A stretch of 34,201 bases of DNA, from assembly GCA_014728215.1 (NCBI GenBank), contig WJLZ01000197.1, positions 1 through 34,201 of the forward strand. The letters run 5' to 3'. A model generated the notes under the pieces. The model searched no databases and was not told where the DNA came from. It saw only the letters and a program-made list of their open reading frames with translations. Shown piece by piece: positions 17,169 to 31,746 of the stretch (the first letter of the stretch is position 1; each line of letters starts with the position of its first letter). A program made the translations under genes and the position numbers. This DNA comes from Chitinivibrionales bacterium (lineage in GTDB: Bacteria > Fibrobacterota > Chitinivibrionia > Chitinivibrionales > WJKA01).

Positions 17169-18974
17169 TTACTGGATACGGACAAATTTTTTATCGGTTA
17201 TTTTCATAATTGCGGCCTCACTATTTGCTCCGGTATGCGGATCGAACGAAACAGGGCCGGAGACGCCGATATGATTATTAATGGAAGCCAGGTAGTCTGC
17301 AATTTTTTCGGCATCGGGATTGCCGCCGGTTTTATTAAGCGCAGTTATGATGAGTTCGGCGGCGTCATACCCCAACGCGGCAACTCTGCCCGGTTCGGCA
17401 TTGTATTTCTTTTTATACCTATTTTTAAAGTCCGTCCACCGCTGATTATTGGCATTAATATCAAAATTCGTTGAAATAATTGCATCATTGACATACCGCT
17501 TACCGTCAAGGATAGTAGCAGCTGAATGCCATCCGGTAGAACCAAGCATCTGGGTACGAATTTTGTGGAAATAGGTCTGTGCGGCAACCTTGACGGCGTC
17601 TTCCGATTCGGCGGGGATAAAAAGTCCGCCGATTTCGATAGTTGAGTCGGCCTGGTAAAGGCTGTCGGCACGCCGGGCGGAACGGCTGTTAACATACTCC
17701 ATTCCCCTTTCAACAGCAAGCGCTTCTCTGCGACGCTCCGCCATTACAGTGCGCAAATTTACAAATTGAGCCCGGAAATCGTGAGCGCCTTCATCAAAAT
17801 ATTCCTCAGCGACAACTTCACCTCCAAGCCGTTCGACTTCCCGCTTGAATTTTGAGGACATCAGCTGACCATATTCCGACAGGGGAGAAAGAATGGCAAA
17901 CTCTCTTATATTGAGATTTTCCACAGCATACCGCGCCAGACGAATGCCAAGGGCTCCGATCGTTACATTCATCTGAAAGATATTTGAACCAAGCTTGGCA
18001 ATACCATCATCAGTTGCTGTCGGGGACAACATGACAACATCCCGCTCCCTGAGCACCGACGCCGCAACAACAGCCGTCTGGCTGAGCACAGGACCGATAA
18101 CAAGCGGAATGTTATGATCGTCTGCAAGTTCGAGGGTTTTTTGGGCAGTCTCAACCATATTTCCCTTTGTATTGCTGATTACCAGATTAAATTCGGTCAT
18201 GTTTTTTTTCTGGTAATCTTCAATCGCCAGTTGCACTCCCCGCACAATGCTTTTTCCGATTTCTGCATCATACCCGGACAGCGGAGCAAGAAGACCTACC
18301 TGAATTTTACCTCGCCGGTCCCTTTTCATGCGTCCTGAGAGATTTTTGATTTTTTCGAGATAAGGAGAACGGGGAAAATCACGGCGAAAATCCTCAGCCT
18401 GCTTTTCGGCTCTGGCAGTTTGTCCGGCACTATACGACTTATATATGATATAGTATTCCAGAATTTCAACAATCGGCACGGCCATTCCACGGCGGTCTGC
18501 GAGGAGCTGCAGTTCACGGTTCGTGAATGCCCGTTTGCATATCAATTCCACATTGTCAAAGGAATGCTGTTCCAGCGTTTCAGAAACACCGCCTTTCACC
18601 GCCTGCGAAAAGGCAACCACGGCATCGGTGTATTCTTCGGCTTTTGCCAGAGCAATACCCTCGGCATAATAAAGACGAGGCAGGTAATCGGAATTGGGGA
18701 ATTTCTTTTTAAAGATGTTGATCATCCGGCGGGCAACGGTAAAATCTTCTGTTCGAAGCAGCGCCTCCACCAAAAGCGGAACGAGGTGTTCGGTTGAAGC
18801 ATCCTTGCCGTGCGATTTGATATACGTCCGTATAACCGCAACAGTCGAATCATAGTCGCCGGCACGATATGCTGCCTTTGCTTTATCCAGTACCATAGCG
18901 GGATTACTCGGGACAGCTTTGCCGGAAAATGAAAAAATCAACACAAAAATGAAAACTATAAACTGCACTCGCAT
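17169..18974 (-). CDS. LpoA-like penicillin-binding-protein activator / periplasmic binding protein with TPR N-terminus
   Basis: This 601-residue exported protein has a signal peptide (FIVFIFVLIFSFSGKA). Residues 25-220 form helical TPR-like repeats (AYRAGDYDSTVAVIRTYIKS, YTDAVVAFSQAVKG). From about residue 233 a type 1 periplasmic-binding fold starts with KIQVGLLAPLSGYDAEIGK and runs to the end (ALGYDAAELIITALNKTGG). This order matches LpoA-type proteins that stimulate bifunctional penicillin-binding proteins. It also resembles branched-chain amino-acid binding proteins, but no ABC transporter genes are next to it. A GGAG site 7 bases before the ATG at 18972-18974 sets the start, 4 bases past the DUF151 stop. 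Being next to ftsX and envC supports a peptidoglycan role. Confidence 0.82.
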   Translation of the reverse strand: MRVQFIVFIFVLIFSFSGKAVPSNPAMVLDKAKAAYRAGDYDSTVAVIRTYIKSHGKDASTEHLVPLLVEALLRTEDFTVARRMINIFKKKFPNSDYLPRLYYAEGIALAKAEEYTDAVVAFSQAVKGGVSETLEQHSFDNVELICKRAFTNRELQLLADRRGMAVPIVEILEYYIIYKSYSAGQTARAEKQAEDFRRDFPRSPYLEKIKNLSGRMKRDRRGKIQVGLLAPLSGYDAEIGKSIVRGVQLAIEDYQKKNMTEFNLVISNTKGNMVETAQKTLELADDHNIPLVIGPVLSQTAVVAASVLRERDVVMLSPTATDDGIAKLGSNIFQMNVTIGALGIRLARYAVENLNIREFAILSPLSEYGQLMSSKFKREVERLGGEVVAEEYFDEGAHDFRAQFVNLRTVMAERRREALAVERGMEYVNSRSARRADSLYQADSTIEIGGLFIPAESEDAVKVAAQTYFHKIRTQMLGSTGWHSAATILDGKRYVNDAIISTNFDINANNQRWTDFKNRYKKKYNAEPGRVAALGYDAAELIITALNKTGGNPDAEKIADYLASINNHIGVSGPVSFDPHTGANSEAAIMKITDKKFVRIQ

Positions 18975-18978
18975 AGAT

Positions 18979-19458
18979 TTACTCCAGATAATATCTACCA
19001 AAATCAACAGTATCCATTGAGGTAATTGTATTTCTAATCTGATGAGCTTCGGTTAAAAAAAGTGATTGACCGCTTTTATCAAACACCGATTCTTCAACAT
19101 AAATATCCCCACTGCACCGCATGGCAAGCGCAATGCCGTCACAGGCACGGCACTCGATAACTTTCATTGTAGACCCGGATTTGATATAGAGACGTGCAAC
19201 AAAGGCATTGTCGACATAATCACAGATTACCGTTTTTGTGAGTTCCCCGCCGAGTTGCTCAATCGCAAGCTTTACACAGTCGATGGTAAGCGGTTTGTCT
19301 GAGTTTGCATTCAGGGTTTTTATTGCAATGGCGCCTGCTTCAAGATGACCGACAAGGATCGATAGCGTACGGCGGCCGCCGATTTCGCTTAATATGACAA
19401 CAGGTGAGCTTACCTGGGAATCCAGGGTCAGCGATGATACTTCGACAGGAACAAGCAT
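18979..19458 (-). CDS. Bifunctional-nuclease family (DUF151) protein
   Basis: The 159-residue product matches the DUF151/BFN family. Shared features are LSEIGGRRTLSILVG near residue 25, KPLTIDCVKLAIEQLGGEL around 55-73, DNAFVARLYI, and the signature ECRACDGIALAMRC. The family is conserved in bacteria and plants. One member was reported as a nuclease, but its cellular role is unsettled. It is the first gene of the minus-strand series and has a good promoter upstream. Its end is 4 bases from the start of the LpoA-like gene, so the two are co-transcribed. Confidence 0.85.
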   Translation of the reverse strand: MLVPVEVSSLTLDSQVSSPVVILSEIGGRRTLSILVGHLEAGAIAIKTLNANSDKPLTIDCVKLAIEQLGGELTKTVICDYVDNAFVARLYIKSGSTMKVIECRACDGIALAMRCSGDIYVEESVFDKSGQSLFLTEAHQIRNTITSMDTVDFGRYYLE

Positions 19459-19594: not shown

Positions 19595-19692
19595 TTTTCG
19601 TCATAATTTAAGTTGTTTTTGGGGTGATGGTAAAAATATATTTGGGATATATACGCGCTGACACACACTATGCCGCCACAAAGGAGGTGCCG

Positions 19693-20673
19693 ATGAAATT
19701 ACCAGCCCTTTTTCTGAAATTATCGATTGTGGTCTCGATTCTTCTAACCACACATTCGTGTACAAAAGATGAAAAGACCACTATCGCGGTTGTTCCCAAA
19801 GGTACCTCGCACGTATTCTGGAAATCGGTGCATGCCGGCGCAAAAAAAGCCGAACAGGAACTGGGTATCGAGACAATCTGGCAGGGGCCGGAAAAAGAAG
19901 ACGACCGTCAGATGCAAATTCAGGTGGTACAGAATTTTATTTCACGAAATGTCGATGCTCTTGTTCTTGCGCCACTGGATGAGGTAGCGCTGATCCGTCC
20001 AGTGGAGGCTGCTATCAAAAGAAATATCCCGACGGTAATAATCGATTCGGACCTCAAAACCGACAATTATGTGAGTTTTGTTGCCACCGATAATTTCGAG
20101 GGCGGCAAAATTGCCGCCAAAGAGCTTGCCCGGCTTCTTAAGGGAAACGGCAATATTCTTATGATGCGCTATGCCGAAGGCTCGGCAAGCACGGCAAAGC
20201 GTGAGGAAGGTTTCCTGGAAGGCATAAACGAGTATGCACCCGATGTAACACTCCTTTCCACCGATCAGTATGCGGGTGTTACCGCAGAATCGGCCCTCCA
20301 GACGGGTCAAAATCTCATTAATAAATATGAAGAACTGGATGGAATATTCTGCCCCAACGAATCCACGACCTTCGGCATGCTCAGGGCACTGCAAACTGCT
20401 GCAAAGGCGGGAACAATCAAGTTTGTGGGATTTGATTCCAGCGAACCGCTTGTTACAGCTCTTGAAAAAGAAGAAATCCACGGGCTTGTGGTCCAGAATC
20501 CCTTTAAAATGGGATATCTTGGTGTTAAGACCGCCATGAAAGCCCTGAAAGGTAAACCGGTCGAAAAGCGGATCGATACCGGCGCCATGTTGGTAACAAA
20601 AGACAATCTCGATACCCCCCCGGTCCAACAGGCGATTTCGCCGGAACTGGATAAATGGCTTTCGGCAAAATAA
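19693..20673 (+). CDS. Monosaccharide ABC transporter substrate-binding protein (RbsB family)
   Basis: The 326-residue exported protein captures a sugar and delivers it to the membrane permease. The ATG at 19693 follows a strong AAGGAGG site and gives a signal peptide (LSIVVSILLTTHSC). Cys23 may be lipidated, although the lipobox TTHSC is imperfect. The mature protein has the RbsB/periplasmic-binding type 1 pattern: TIAVVPKGTSHVFWKSVHAG at the start, VDALVLAPLDEVALIRPVEA, IPTVIIDSDL, the hinge region GVTAESALQTGQNL and DGIFCPNESTTFGML. This matches pentose or related sugar binders. The true ligand cannot be read from sequence. The ATPase and permease follow 2.9 kb downstream on the same strand. 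Confidence 0.9.
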   Translation: MKLPALFLKLSIVVSILLTTHSCTKDEKTTIAVVPKGTSHVFWKSVHAGAKKAEQELGIETIWQGPEKEDDRQMQIQVVQNFISRNVDALVLAPLDEVALIRPVEAAIKRNIPTVIIDSDLKTDNYVSFVATDNFEGGKIAAKELARLLKGNGNILMMRYAEGSASTAKREEGFLEGINEYAPDVTLLSTDQYAGVTAESALQTGQNLINKYEELDGIFCPNESTTFGMLRALQTAAKAGTIKFVGFDSSEPLVTALEKEEIHGLVVQNPFKMGYLGVKTAMKALKGKPVEKRIDTGAMLVTKDNLDTPPVQQAISPELDKWLSAK

Positions 20674-20714: not shown

Positions 20715-20849
20715 TAAAAAAACAGCTCTTTGTGATCACCGTCACAGACTCCTCAATTTTTATTATATATTTTCATACTATCATTTGTATAATTTATTGA
20801 TGAATATTACGGCAGCGGCCCCACACCGCCGTCTGCCATATATTCACCC

Positions 20850-22226
20850 TTGAGCAAAAAACAGACGTCAACCAAGCATCAGTCAACCGGCATAATTTCC
20901 GAAACTTTTGCCGCCACGGGCATGACCGGTCTTGGCAACATCCTTCTCGCCGAGACCCCCACAATCATCATGGCCCAGGCAGAGCCACCGTCCTTTCCCC
21001 GTTTCCTTACCGTGTCCTACATCCAGAACATAGTCAAAACCGAAATCCTGCCCATTCTTAACGAGGTCCTGGCTGCAATCGGGCGGCTGCAAAACCGCAG
21101 CGACATGTCCCTCGTGGTTACGATATTCGAAGAAACCGGCGAAATAGACAAAGGTGAGATATATCTCCTCGAATCCGCGGTACGACTGTCCCGGGCGATG
21201 CTCTCGATGTTCTGCATCTATGATTTCGACATCTATTCGCCCGACGGCTCCAAAGATATGCGGTGGATCGACGATTATGTATCCCTTGTTCAAAATACCG
21301 AAGAACATGAAAAACTCAAATTCCGCCTGAGCCGAGATACCTTGTATGAAACCTGTACCTACGACCAGACGCAACTATCGTGCGAATTATCCGATATCAT
21401 AAGCTACAATCTTACTCGCAACGGTTTCCTCACAATGCAAAACAACTATTTTGACGCCGTTTACAACGATTTGAAAGCCGTTCCTCGGGCGATCAAGAAT
21501 GCACTGAGTTCAATTCGTGCCGAAACCGACAACCAGAACGATGATATCCTGATCAGGACCGATATTATCGATCTGGACGCCGATATGGCGTCAATCCAAA
21601 GCGATATGCTCAACGAAGGAATCAGTGAAGATCTGGCCGGAAAATTTTCTTCTCCCGAAGCCCTGATGGATTTTATCTCTACCCTTCTCACCCAACCGTA
21701 TACCTTCAACGAAACCATCGACAGTACTCCAATAACAATTAGAGTCGATCTCTCCAAATTCTTTACCAATCCCGCCGCCGACTTGAAAACCCGATGGCCG
21801 AAATACAAACTGGTTTCAGGGGACAATCGCATAGTGAGCACCAACTATGAATACAGCAACTGGAGTTCCTGGAGAGACTCAACCATCCATTATGACAGCT
21901 TCTACTACGACACGGTAATTATGGATATAGCCGACCATCAAATCGACAGCGTGTATACCTCAGACTGGGGCTATACAACGGTCATACTCAAAAACGGTTA
22001 CACCACACATGTCCAATCCGATTCAACATTAACCTGCGTGCCCTACAAGCTCATCGATGATCAATGACAGGAAATCGACTACCAAAGCCTGTACGACCTC
22101 GATGACGATGTTGCTATACTGGAAGCCGGGTTTCCGTATTTCAACGATTACACCTTCGGCGGCGTATTCCCCGACATGACAACCCGTCAAAGCTGGATCG
22201 ATTTTATCAAGCCCCTGATCAAGTAA
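20850..22226 (+). pseudogene. Unknown 405-codon gene with in-frame TGA and 52 further codons
   Basis: The frame opens at a TTG without a visible ribosome-binding site. It runs 405 codons to TGA at 22065-22067, then stays open and coding-like for 52 more codons (QEIDYQSLYDLDDD to WIDFIKPLIK) until TAA at 22224-22226. That pattern fits a nonsense mutation, perhaps TGG to TGA. The N-terminus lacks a signal peptide, so it may also be truncated. The product is acidic and helical in its first two thirds (FLTVSYIQNIVKTEILPIL, LLESAVRLSRAMLSMF). Its C-terminal part is rich in Tyr, Ser and Asp. I do not recognise the family. It overlaps the next gene by one base (TAATG). TGA is a normal stop elsewhere in the window, so recoding is unlikely. 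Confidence 0.6.
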
Positions 22227-22917
22227 TGACTCTTCTTTTAAGAATACCGGCGCCCTGGCCGAAAGCCGCTGCTTTCGGCCGTTTTGTTATCCTTACAATC
22301 GCCGCGGCCTTCTCTTCAGGCAATGCTTTTCACCCTTTCGATATTGCCGCAAACCTCACATTCGATCCCCGAATCTCAATCATTTCGGACACTTCATCAC
22401 TTGATCTTGCCTTTGCATATCACCCCCTTGTTCATGAATTTGGCCGTAGCGACGACGATACCTTCAATTCCTTTATCGATATCATGTATGCAAGAACCGG
22501 CGGTACCGTGTATCTGAATACTATCCCTGTGGGTTTGCGGTGTGAAGTAATGAATCATTTCGGCGCCTATCGAAAGGATAATCAGGAATATTCATTCGAT
22601 GTGAAGGGCAAAGCCGCAATGCTGACCGCAGCGACCCGCTTTCCAATCGAGCACCTCAGCGTTGAATGCTCTTTAGGTCGCCTCTTTCTCCCCGCTTACG
22701 ACAGGGATACGATGTACCACAGGGTGGTGAACAATCCCCGTGAATATATCTTGACCGGTCGCTGATCATTGGTATTGATCTGGGCCAGCGTATTCCCATT
22801 TTATTTCAAGACGCACAGAAATCATCATCCTCCCAACCATCAGGTCCCTCTATAGGGTTGAAAAGCCGTTATTTTGGCGGCACAACCATTCAAATCGATA
22901 TGCAGTTCACCTTCTGA
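22226..22917 (+). pseudogene. Barrel-like outer-membrane protein gene with a frameshift
   Basis: The first frame (to TGA at 22763-22765) encodes a signal peptide (FVILTIAAAFSSGNA) and beta-rich segments such as SLDLAFAYHPLVHEFG and YSFDVKGKAAMLTAATRF. After residue 175 the coherent sequence continues in the next frame as DRSLIIGIDLGQRIPILFQ. It ends GTTIQIDMQFTF with stop at 22915-22917. A terminal Phe and alternating residues fit a barrel C-terminus. The break lies between 22743 and 22763. Either one base was lost or gained in evolution or it is a sequencing error. The original product would be about 230 residues. It overlaps the preceding damaged gene by one base, as expected of a former operon. 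Confidence 0.6.
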
Positions 22918-22949
22918 AACAACACCGGGTGATTCTCCATTATCTTTTC

Positions 22950-22978
22950 TTTACTTGAAACCGAAAATTCGGTATAAT
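22950..22978 (+). promoter_or_regulatory. Possible sigma70-type promoter before the cyclic-nucleotide-domain remnant
   Basis: TTTACT and a perfect TATAAT are separated by 17 bases, about 40 bases before an ATG at 23021. The -10 box is ideal and the -35 box matches four of six. It lies just after the barrel-like pseudogene and could also drive the transporter genes downstream. Confidence 0.4.
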
Positions 22979-23020
22979 TTTAGTGCGGGGAATACTTTTT
23001 CTTTCGAATATCGGAAAACC

Positions 23021-23534
23021 ATGCCAATGAATGCTTCATCAACCGATATCCAACTGGAGCATATGAAACCGTGTGTTATTCCCGATGCGCAGTTCATACC
23101 CTTCAAACCGGGCATAACGTATCTCAAAAACCCTCATAGAGGCGCCTATTTAAAACTTCGTAAAGAAGATGCCGATTATATGCCAGCCCATGGAGGAACG
23201 CTTTGATACCGATGAAATTATTTTCAACCAGAACGACTGGGGAGATAAGGTTTATTGTATCAAAGAAGGTGAAGTCATTATCCGCCGTGATGAAGGAGAT
23301 GAAGTCGCCTTTTTGAAATACCTGAAGAAGGGTGAATGGTTTGGAGAAATTGCCCTTGTAAAAAATGTTCCCCGTACTACCAGTGTCATTGCAGCATCGC
23401 CAGTTCGTCTATTGACACTTTCCCGGCATGATTTTTATACTATCATTCAACAAAGTCTTCTCACCGGCGTGTCCTTTGATCATATTGCCGACGAACGCCT
23501 TGAGGAATTGGAAAAAGCAACAGCGATACAATAG
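23021..23534 (+). pseudogene. PqqD-like / cyclic-nucleotide-binding domain protein with a frame break
   Basis: An ATG at 23021 opens a frame whose middle (KPGITYLKNPHRGAYLKLRK) resembles PqqD-like small domains. It ends at TGA 23204-23206. From 23169 another frame encodes a clear cyclic-nucleotide-binding domain: GDKVYCIKEGEVIIRRDEG, then GEWFGEIALVKNVPRTTSV, and a C-terminal helix. That part begins near the second strand of the domain, so its first helix and probably an intervening stretch are missing. The two frames overlap. The simplest reading is one multi-domain gene that suffered a deletion plus frameshift. Alternatively, the 23169 or 23190 ATG makes a short stand-alone domain of about 115-121 residues. 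Ligand (cAMP, cGMP or none) cannot be told. Confidence 0.55.
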
Positions 23535-23620: not shown

Positions 23621-25135
23621 ATGAATACGCCAATTCTTCACATGAAAAAAATTTCCAAGCGTTTCGGTGCGGTAAAGGCACTGAAAAATGTCGACCTGAC
23701 TGTGGATAAAGGATCGGTTCATGCATTGATTGGAGAAAACGGGGCCGGCAAAAGTACGCTTATGAAAATTCTCAGCGGTGCGCTCCGTCCCGACTACGGT
23801 ACGGTTGCCCTGGATGGTTGCGCCTATGCTCCCGAATCGCCAAAAAAGGCGCGGGCTATGGGTATCGCAATGATCTATCAGGAACTGACCCTGGCGCCCC
23901 ATTTGACCATAGCCGAAAATATTACCCTGGGTATGGAACACCATCACTACGGCGTACTGAAAAAACAGGACCTGAAAATTTCACAAACCCTTACCCGTCT
24001 CGGCCATTCGGGTCTTGATCTCAACGCAAAAGTATCAACCCTGGGGATCGGGGAACAACAGATTGTTGAAATAGCCCGAGCCCTCATTACCGACGCCCGT
24101 GTAATTATCATGGATGAACCCACCAGTTCACTTTCGGCGTCCGATACTGAAACTCTTTTTGCAACAATCCGGCGGCTGAAACAGACCGGCGTTACCGTTA
24201 TTTATATCAGCCATTTCCTTGAGGAGATCAAACGGATTGCCGATCATTACACTGTTTTGCGGGACGGGCAAAGCGTTGACCGGGGCCCTATCGAAACAAC
24301 CGATTTACCACAGATTATTAACGCCATGATAGGAAGGCCACTCACCGAAATGTTTCCCCGCGTCCCCCATACAATCGGCGAAGTCCTTGTAACAATCAAC
24401 GACCTCTCCCGCACGCCCGACCTCGCCGAAACATCGTTTTGTATTCATAAAGGTGAGATCCTCGGCATTGCCGGCCTGGTAGGCGCCAAACGCACCGATA
24501 TGCTCAGAACTCTTTTCGGACTCGACCGTGCCGATAATGGAACGATCTCCTTCGCAAACGGCGTCACCCTGGCCCTTATCGACATCTCCCCGCGTACTTC
24601 GCTGAAAAACGGCGTCGATCTCCTCAGTGAAAACCGGAAAGAGGAAGGACTTGCACTCAATCTCCCCATACGGAACAATATCACCCTTTCTTCACTTGCC
24701 CAATTTATTATTCCGAACACCCCCGGGTTTATCGACACTCAAAAAGAAAACGACATTGTCGAGACTCAATGCAAATCACTTTCGCTGCGCTACACGTCAC
24801 CCTGTCAGAAAAGCGGCGATCTTTCGGGCGGCAATCAGCAGAAAGTTGCACTGGCGCGGCTGCTGGTCGACCAAAGCGACATATTGCTGCTGGATGAACC
24901 GACACGGGGGATTGATGTCGGCAGTAAAACCGAAATATACCGTCTTATCGGCGAACTTGCCCTGTTGGGCAAGTCCATTGTCATGGTAAGCTCCTATCTT
25001 CCGGAGCTTTTCGGGATGTGTGATTCCCTTGCGGTCATGTACCGGGGCACTTTAAGTCCGGTGTGGCCGTGTAATGAGTGGAATGAAAAACGAGTCATGG
25101 CCTGGGCCACCTCGGGAAAGGAACTGGACAGTTGA
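23621..25135 (+). CDS. Monosaccharide ABC transporter ATP-binding protein (RbsA/MglA family)
   Basis: The 504-residue protein has two fused ATPase domains and energises sugar import. Domain 1 has Walker A GENGAGKST (residues 38-46), signature LGIGEQQIVEIARA near 141 and Walker B VIIMDEPTS near 160. Domain 2 has a degenerate Walker A (GLVGAKRTDM, near 285), signature LSGGNQQKVALARLL near 401 and Walker B ILLLDEPTRGIDVGS. The degenerate second P-loop is usual for this family. It overlaps the permease gene by 4 bases (TTGA). The ATG follows only a weak AAAAAG site. Its partner binding-protein gene is separated by the damaged block. Confidence 0.95.
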   Translation: MNTPILHMKKISKRFGAVKALKNVDLTVDKGSVHALIGENGAGKSTLMKILSGALRPDYGTVALDGCAYAPESPKKARAMGIAMIYQELTLAPHLTIAENITLGMEHHHYGVLKKQDLKISQTLTRLGHSGLDLNAKVSTLGIGEQQIVEIARALITDARVIIMDEPTSSLSASDTETLFATIRRLKQTGVTVIYISHFLEEIKRIADHYTVLRDGQSVDRGPIETTDLPQIINAMIGRPLTEMFPRVPHTIGEVLVTINDLSRTPDLAETSFCIHKGEILGIAGLVGAKRTDMLRTLFGLDRADNGTISFANGVTLALIDISPRTSLKNGVDLLSENRKEEGLALNLPIRNNITLSSLAQFIIPNTPGFIDTQKENDIVETQCKSLSLRYTSPCQKSGDLSGGNQQKVALARLLVDQSDILLLDEPTRGIDVGSKTEIYRLIGELALLGKSIVMVSSYLPELFGMCDSLAVMYRGTLSPVWPCNEWNEKRVMAWATSGKELDS

Positions 25136-28960: not shown

Positions 28961-29143
28961 ATGAAAGTTAAAGATACAGCCCACCAGGTCATTGATTCTC
29001 TTCCTGAGAGAGTTTCAATGGATGATGTTATTCACGCGTTATACGTTGCATCGAAATTTGACCGCGGAGAACGTCAAATTCGAGCCGGAAAAGGCGTTTC
29101 AGACGAAAAAGCAAGAAAAAAGCTCGCAAAATGGCAAAAATAG
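28961..29143 (+). CDS. Antitoxin of a ParD/RelB type pair
   Basis: The 60-residue product (MKVKDTAHQVIDSLPERVSM start) is small and charged, with a C-terminal tail rich in Lys and Arg (SDEKARKKLAKWQK) that could wrap the toxin. A GAGAGG site precedes the ATG. It overlaps the toxin by 13 bases. The DDVIHALYVASKFDRGERQI segment resembles antitoxins found with RelE/ParE toxins in many MAGs. Pairing is by layout. Confidence 0.75.
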   Translation: MKVKDTAHQVIDSLPERVSMDDVIHALYVASKFDRGERQIRAGKGVSDEKARKKLAKWQK

Positions 29144-29421
29144 TCTGGTCGCCCGGCGCACTGGACGACATTGATGCCATAGCCGAATATATTGCTCGCG
29201 ATTCTGTTCATCATGCCTCTCTTTTTATTGACCGACTGTTCGAAACAGCGGATTTATTGCTTGAACAACCCTACCTTGGTCGAATTATTCCTGAAATCGG
29301 TCAGAATTCCTGTCGTGAAATAATCTACGGCTCTTACCGAATAATGTATAAAGTCGAAAAAAGCAATATCTGGATAACAGCTGTGATACATGGTGCAAAA
29401 AATTGGAAACCACCTCGATAA
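29131..29421 (+). CDS. RelE/ParE-family toxin
   Basis: The 96-residue product has the RelE/ParE pattern: VWSPGALDDIDAIAEYIARD at the start, LLEQPYLGRIIPEIGQ in the middle and REIIYGSYRIMYKVE before the last strand. ParE-type toxins poison DNA gyrase, while RelE types cleave mRNA. The sequence (GSYRIMYKVE, no clear RelE catalytic set) fits ParE better. The gene starts within the antitoxin's last codons. The frame is intact, so the pair is probably functional. Confidence 0.88.
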   Translation: MAKIVWSPGALDDIDAIAEYIARDSVHHASLFIDRLFETADLLLEQPYLGRIIPEIGQNSCREIIYGSYRIMYKVEKSNIWITAVIHGAKNWKPPR

Positions 29422-29931: not shown

Positions 29932-31746
29932 TCATTTCAGGATCTGAAGTTTATGGATATCGGATTGTATTTCCGAAAATGAAAAGCGATAATAATATAT
30001 TCCATTTGCCGGTATACCGTGAATTTCAACTGTTTTCTTGTTTTCTGATTTTATTGCCTTTAGCACTCTTCCTTTTAAATCATAAATAGTAACCTGCGCC
30101 TGTGCATTCTGAAATTGGGTTGGCACACTTATCGAATAGGTATCTCCCCGGATATTATATGCCATTTTTGCTTTTTGGCCTGTAAATGCGTTTTCTTCCT
30201 GCACAGAAGCATCATATCCATATTTTATTACCAGCGTATCGTTGTTAACCACATATATCAGACTATCTCCTTTATTCCATGAAAAGGTAGAGTCATAGTA
30301 GCCGCTGGACCAGCAAATGTTGGGATAATGCGGATTAAAATATTGTTCCGGAAAATATTCATACTTTGCATGAATGGTTAGCGAAGAAGGTGATAAATTC
30401 AAAGAGATGGCTGAGTTTGAGAAGTGTATGATTGGCTCAGAAAGGATGGTGCCACATGTATATAATTTGAAGTCATCAGGTATTTTTTCACCCGGAATAA
30501 TTGCATGCTTGACTGCCTGATCTTTTGTCGTTACTCTAATCGGATAATAGCAAGAATCAGCATTACATAAACAGATCGAAGGATCACGATTATTCCCATC
30601 ATCATCGTATGTAGCTATTTCAATCTGTTCTAAGCCAATGCCGCTATATATATATGGTCGAGTGTTAACAAATGTGATAAGGCTTTCAGGACTGGTCAGG
30701 GATATGAAAGTTGGATCGTTCTTATAGATATGAAAATGATAATTCCAATCCTCATCCAGAAGCTCTATAGCTGAACCGTTTGGATGCTTTATTAAATTGA
30801 AGTATCGATAATTCGCAGAATCAAGAGTGTAAAATATCCAGTTTTGGTTTTGATGAACGATTAAACTTCCGTTATCTCCAACAGCAGCGCTATTGTTGAT
30901 ATTCCAAAGAGGAAAGCTGCAAACCTGAGTATCAAGTAGAAAAAAGCCCGAACTATCGAAATGATATATGCTACCGGTATATGTTGCTGCATATCCGTCG
31001 CCATAGCATAAAACATCTTCATTCGATGAAATATCATATATGGATTCGTTAACAAATAGATTATCTGCAATATCCCACCTCCTTATAAGCCCGGAAGATC
31101 CTGTAATCCAGATATTGCTGTCACAGATTGCATTTTCAGATTCCGGAATGCTTTTTGGAGACGTCGTCATATTTATTATTTGTTGACCGGCCTTGAATGA
31201 AGAAAGCATTATCGTTTCAATTTTTTCTATAGTGAATGCAGGATTCTCATAAACCGATTCCATTGCAAATGAAATTAAACGTATCTCTCCTGCCGGCTGT
31301 GCAATTGCTAATGAAAAATTCAGATTTTCCAGGTCAAATTTATAAAAACAGAGCGGTGTTGATTGTGTTAATTCAACATTCTCGAGATAGATTTCAACGG
31401 GATTATAGTAATATCGCCAGGGTTGAAATCCTAAGACAAGAGGATAAACCATAGAACTTAATGCCAGATATAGCTTTTTCTGATGCGATACAACAGCAGA
31501 AATTGAATACTCGCCGGAATGCCTGGATGTATAGGATAAAGGGCGCAAAGTGCAGAGCGTGTCCGGCAAGGGCTGGTAGCATTCTTTCCAATAGCTGCAT
31601 AAGCGATCTGAAAAAATATAGCCATTTTCATCTGCAGAACATTGATTGTATTGTGAGTCTGCTTTGAAAGCCAGTATAAATAGAACAGCAAATATCTGTG
31701 TTAGAGCGCTACATGATATTTTTATAGAGTTGAAATATGAAGCCAT
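29932..31746 (-). CDS. Secreted protein with C-terminal sorting-like domain
   Basis: The 604-residue protein has an N-terminal signal (IFAVLFILAFKADSQ) and a beta-rich body. Repeated W-x-I and G-x-L phrases such as WITGSSGLIRRWDIADNLFV suggest a propeller-like fold. Residues about 530-604 form a type A sorting-like domain: QVTIYDLKGRVLKAI, then HGIPANGIYYYRFSF and a final strand HKLQILK. This pattern is known for type 9 secretion cargo in Bacteroidota and for similar domains in Fibrobacterota. Several cysteines near the start of the mature chain may form disulfides. An AGGGAT site precedes the ATG. Enzymatic motifs are not evident. It may be a surface protein. Confidence 0.75.
   Translation of the reverse strand: MASYFNSIKISCSALTQIFAVLFILAFKADSQYNQCSADENGYIFSDRLCSYWKECYQPLPDTLCTLRPLSYTSRHSGEYSISAVVSHQKKLYLALSSMVYPLVLGFQPWRYYYNPVEIYLENVELTQSTPLCFYKFDLENLNFSLAIAQPAGEIRLISFAMESVYENPAFTIEKIETIMLSSFKAGQQIINMTTSPKSIPESENAICDSNIWITGSSGLIRRWDIADNLFVNESIYDISSNEDVLCYGDGYAATYTGSIYHFDSSGFFLLDTQVCSFPLWNINNSAAVGDNGSLIVHQNQNWIFYTLDSANYRYFNLIKHPNGSAIELLDEDWNYHFHIYKNDPTFISLTSPESLITFVNTRPYIYSGIGLEQIEIATYDDDGNNRDPSICLCNADSCYYPIRVTTKDQAVKHAIIPGEKIPDDFKLYTCGTILSEPIIHFSNSAISLNLSPSSLTIHAKYEYFPEQYFNPHYPNICWSSGYYDSTFSWNKGDSLIYVVNNDTLVIKYGYDASVQEENAFTGQKAKMAYNIRGDTYSISVPTQFQNAQAQVTIYDLKGRVLKAIKSENKKTVEIHGIPANGIYYYRFSFSEIQSDIHKLQILK

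Follow-up and report, generated by a model that had tools for sequence, protein, structure and literature searches.

A probable pseudogene cluster between sugar ABC transporter genes of a Chitinivibrionales bacterium, and the conserved pair of lipoprotein and predicted barrel genes in its relatives

The closest described counterparts of the first two genes considered here, A and B, are the alginate export pair AlgK (a TPR lipoprotein) and AlgE (an outer-membrane barrel) and the fused BcsC. In all of these, a helical lipoprotein is encoded with a barrel, and the model of B, a predicted barrel, has BcsC and AlgE among its best Foldseek matches. However, no sequence similarity to solved structures was found, a TPR match for A is not confident, and many unrelated barrels match B about equally well. 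Unlike the alginate pair, A and B are adjoined by no recognised polysaccharide synthase genes; as read from ORF sequences, their neighbours vary by locus. The third gene, C, ends in a cyclic-nucleotide-binding domain as other PF00027 proteins do, but most of its parent is missing, and in that parent two such domains accompany a multi-helix membrane region. In their present state, the three genes resemble ordinary pseudogenes decaying by deletion, with a premature stop, a lost N-terminus, large internal deletions and no second copy; the only differences are that three neighbouring genes are affected and that they lie inside an operon. We found nothing in the literature on pseudogenes in Chitinivibrionia.

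The window analysed is an entire contig of 34,201 bp from a Fibrobacterota metagenome-assembled genome (MAG) of 5.0 Mb in 229 contigs (96% complete, 3.4% contamination). A preliminary description had placed three damaged genes in tandem on one strand inside a sugar-transporter locus, and both the arrangement and the site hold. All three genes are damaged and in the same orientation, and they occupy the 2947-bp gap between an intact sugar-binding-protein gene and an intact ATPase gene (Table 1). We conclude with high confidence that positions 20793-23534 are a pseudogene cluster, an A-B pair and a C segment between sugar ABC genes that decayed by large deletions and a premature stop.

Table 1. 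Relic and flanking genes in the window.
Feature	Position	Strand	Basis
Sugar-binding-protein gene (Peripla_BP_4), left flank	19624-20673	+	intact
Gene A relic, lipoprotein family	20793-22226	+	HMM match either side of in-frame TGA 22065-22067; original stop TAA 22224-22226
Gene B relic, N-terminal part (signal peptide, first barrel strands)	22226-22762	+	profile 36-155, E 6e-10; TAATG one-base overlap with A
Gene B relic, C-terminal strands, other frame	22765-22917	+	profile 455-504, E 1e-6; own stop TGA 22915-22917
Gene C relic, N-terminal ~57 residues	23028-23197	+	tblastn, L074 720-aa protein residues 1-57, 32% identity, E 8e-8
Gene C relic, C-terminal cyclic-nucleotide-binding domain	23190-23534	+	L074 residues 607-712, 42% identity, E 2e-26; PF00027 E 5.9e-21
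Sugar ABC ATPase gene, right flank	23621-25135	+	intact

Gene A had been described as a 405-codon frame with an in-frame TGA. This frame is present, running from TTG 20850 to the TGA and then open in the same frame to the original TAA. The TTG is not the start of the gene: homology to the family sets in within the stretch that is open from 20793, the true N-terminus is missing, and no ribosome-binding site is evident upstream of TTG 20850. Against a profile HMM built from 16 relatives, the relic matches positions 140-532 before the TGA (432 bits) and 544-574 after it (57 bits). It thus retains homology to the core region of the family (profile 140-574) and lacks positions 1-139, the ~140 positions that in intact relatives include the signal peptide and lipobox. 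Because this N-terminal signal is absent, gene A in the window is, as far as its sequence tells, a relic and not a working member of the family, and a single A match, with no second copy, was found in its own genome (96% complete). The codon-position bias of gene A is still gene-like, so its decay is probably recent. In a phylogenetic tree, the relic clusters with L056-L058, three MAGs filed as Fibrobacter sp. (support 100/99), and not with the same-family genome L065, a placement that is compatible with lateral arrival but is no proof of it.

The B relic (22226-22917) joins the start and the end of a barrel protein of ~510 residues. Relative to a 504-position profile, positions 156-454 (~300 codons) are absent, so that N- and C-terminal barrel regions follow directly after A and a complete barrel of ~500 residues does not. 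The reported frame break is present, near 22745-22765, but it is not a frameshift in origin. Since both ends of the profile match while the middle is missing, and since the C-terminal piece (22765-22914) scores 23.9 bits compared to a best of 7.0 among 300 shuffles of the region, the cause is a deletion that joined positions 36-155 to 455-504. The one-base overlap with A is as reported, with ATG 22226 overlapping the A stop codon, and can be compared to the TGATG overlap in the intact relative L057. No second copy of B was found in the source genome (96% complete). A terminator-like hairpin of 11 pairs with a T-rich tail (22256-22281) lies at the start of the B relic.

The C relic (23028-23534) consists of two parts in different frames, with ~550 codons missing in between. 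Its full-length relative, L074:7775-9937 in genome G158, codes for a protein of 720 residues, which include a multi-helix membrane region and, towards the C-terminus, two cyclic-nucleotide domains; this protein has no other confident Pfam match, and its N-terminal 450 residues carry no Pfam name. C had been called a PqqD-like/cyclic-nucleotide gene with a frame break. The cyclic-nucleotide domain stands, while the Pfam PqqD profile matches neither the fragment nor its full-length relative. Likewise, a frame break is present near 23190-23206, but with residues 1-57 joined to 607-712 of the 720-residue relative it is not a simple frameshift. The lesions in the cluster are thus two large internal deletions (B and C) and a lost N-terminus (A), rather than the simple frameshifts first proposed. 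A search for viral relatives of the C fragment gave a single, chance-like match of 26 residues, and a viral connection was rejected. Within the C relic, and thereby upstream of the sugar ATPase gene, there is a promoter-like site matching 11 of 12 positions (23412-23441).

Comparison with relatives suggests that the segment was inserted here and then decayed, rather than being lost from the relatives, because the same gap measures 351 bp in the same-genus genome G001 and 4 bp in G014; this ancestral state is read from two relatives, one of which is 77% complete and carries an unrelated spacer of its own, 300 bp long. The ATPase of the same-genus genome is 67% identical to that of the window. 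The G001 spacer is similar to the relic region only in the final ~80 bp of that region, up to and across the ATPase start, and by HMM contains no A or B remnants. A segment carrying the A-B pair and, behind it, a large cyclic-nucleotide membrane protein (C) would have come between the binding-protein and ATPase genes, and decay would then have proceeded mainly via large deletions, plus a premature stop. No long repeats were found at the junctions or flanking the relic, and mobile-element borders were rejected for lack of long flanking repeats. Plasmid origin was rejected as well, there being no match among 72,556 plasmids.

Most probably, the cluster itself has no function. It is unlikely, in our estimate, that the relic is still partly used, with either the 121-residue cyclic-nucleotide domain or the new spacer controlling the sugar ATPase and permease genes. 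The domain is almost complete, and the promoter-like and terminator-like elements noted above would fit such a role. However, consensus matches exceed the chance expectation only mildly (10 compared to 5.2 ± 2.3 expected, and 5 compared to 3.6 ± 1.8 expected), and the relatives have no orthologous short gene.

The preliminary description had also proposed that A, B and C were a former operon; with the products as now read, this would have been a functional envelope system of lipoprotein, barrel and cyclic-nucleotide protein, decaying as a unit. While the shared strand, the tandem order and the damage to all three genes agree with this, we consider it quite improbable. Intact versions of A and B exist in relatives with their order kept, but the order A-B-C was found nowhere: no relative has a third gene of the C kind after A-B, a full-length C occurs in 1 of 168 Fibrobacterota genomes (G158), and that genome has no A. 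Nor was the C fragment found elsewhere in the phylum at E ≤ 0.01. Since C is never beside A-B and the sole genome with full-length C lacks A, a three-gene system is not supported, and C probably came to stand beside A-B by accident. As this case shows, damaged genes in tandem are not necessarily the remains of one operon.

Very improbable, too, is an assembly artefact, in which the organism has intact genes, and a short-read assembly dropped parts of them and introduced errors. The fragmentation of the MAG (229 contigs) and its 3.4% contamination leave some room for this explanation. However, three separate large gaps and a point lesion would have to fall within 2.7 kb of one contig, between intact flanks that belong to one operon; it is this need for several unrelated large gaps that makes assembly error unlikely. 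In addition, the junctions lack long repeats, and elsewhere in the window the genes can be read without interruption. Finally, recoding of TGA 22065 as selenocysteine or a reassigned codon, which would leave A intact, has next to no chance of being correct: the frame does continue for 52 codons with homology past the TGA, but the residues aligned there in relatives are mostly small or polar and not Cys, TGA terminates intact genes elsewhere in the window, and the N-terminus of A is missing anyway.

If the cluster is taken as a set of pseudogenes, its interest lies in the intact relatives of A and B. Relatives of A, ~570-840 residues long, occur in a dozen Fibrobacterota genomes, and distant relatives are found more widely in the phylum (40 of 168 genomes) and beyond it in SM23_31, Cloacimonadota, Latescibacterota and Krumholzibacteriota. 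As judged from their sequences, the intact proteins have an N-terminal signal peptide, and many of them a lipobox cysteine, which does not fit the soluble protein first suggested for A. Intact B relatives (~455-540 residues) are encoded directly downstream. In all 14 readable loci, from Fibrobacterota, Cloacimonadota, Latescibacterota and SM23_31, the two genes are adjacent or overlapping; in 13 loci, B starts -43 to +124 bp from the A stop, and in one (SM23_31) 696 bp from it. No Pfam or NCBIfam family covers A or B. The earlier suggestion of an undescribed envelope system therefore holds for the pair, where "undescribed" is judged by these two databases.

Several families of the phylum have single loci with the same layout, a lipoprotein-type A directly followed by a secreted protein of ~480-530 residues. 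The B profile mostly misses the second protein in these loci, L110 being an exception (E 1.5e-53). One such locus, L106:1767-5067, is in the complete genome G057 and encodes an A-related lipoprotein (E 9e-23) directly followed by a 481-residue secreted protein missed by the B profile; it is likely a diverged A-B pair. This positional equivalent could make A-B function accessible to gene removal in a cultured member.

That the second product is a barrel, as first proposed, is supported by the match of the relic to the B profile and by an AlphaFold2 model of an intact B relative, which is all-beta (pLDDT 72, pTM 0.67). The Foldseek matches listed for this model are outer-membrane barrels of many kinds, with BcsC, Cir, OccAB3, OprD and AlgE among the best, although no single solved barrel is matched with a TM-score above ~0.5, a low value. 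No confident structural match was obtained for A (best Foldseek E 0.08). One relative has a weak TPR match below the cut-off (PF23914, 7.7e-4), and we regard a TPR-like A as a weak lead.

With the pairing observed, the export signals read from sequence and the barrel predicted, intact A-B is probably a lipoprotein-assisted outer-membrane transporter. In intact relatives, lipoprotein A would stay at the outer membrane and assist B, a barrel of ~16-20 strands, and B would pass a substrate through the membrane; we infer the substrate, the direction of passage and an interaction between A and B. More tentatively, and with somewhat less than even confidence, we propose that the pair is an undescribed two-gene device for secretion or uptake across the outer membrane, distributed throughout Fibrobacterota and more widely, and that the genome studied here is a natural case of its loss. 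The relic itself is ordinary; its decay has gone further than first noted. Its value is as a pointer to a conserved lipoprotein-barrel pair that lacks a family model, is present in Fibrobacterota, Cloacimonadota and Latescibacterota at least, and merits description as a family in its own right.

Three further genes of the window should also be noted. Upstream of the binding-protein gene, positions 17169-19007 encode TPR repeats fused to a periplasmic-binding-protein-like (LppC-like) domain, possibly a lipoprotein activator of peptidoglycan synthase. A ParE-type toxin gene of a type II toxin-antitoxin system lies at 29131-29421 (PF05016, E 4e-20). Positions 29932-31746 encode a 604-residue protein whose C-terminal match to the secretion-system sorting domain Por_Secre_tail is slightly under the Pfam cut-off.
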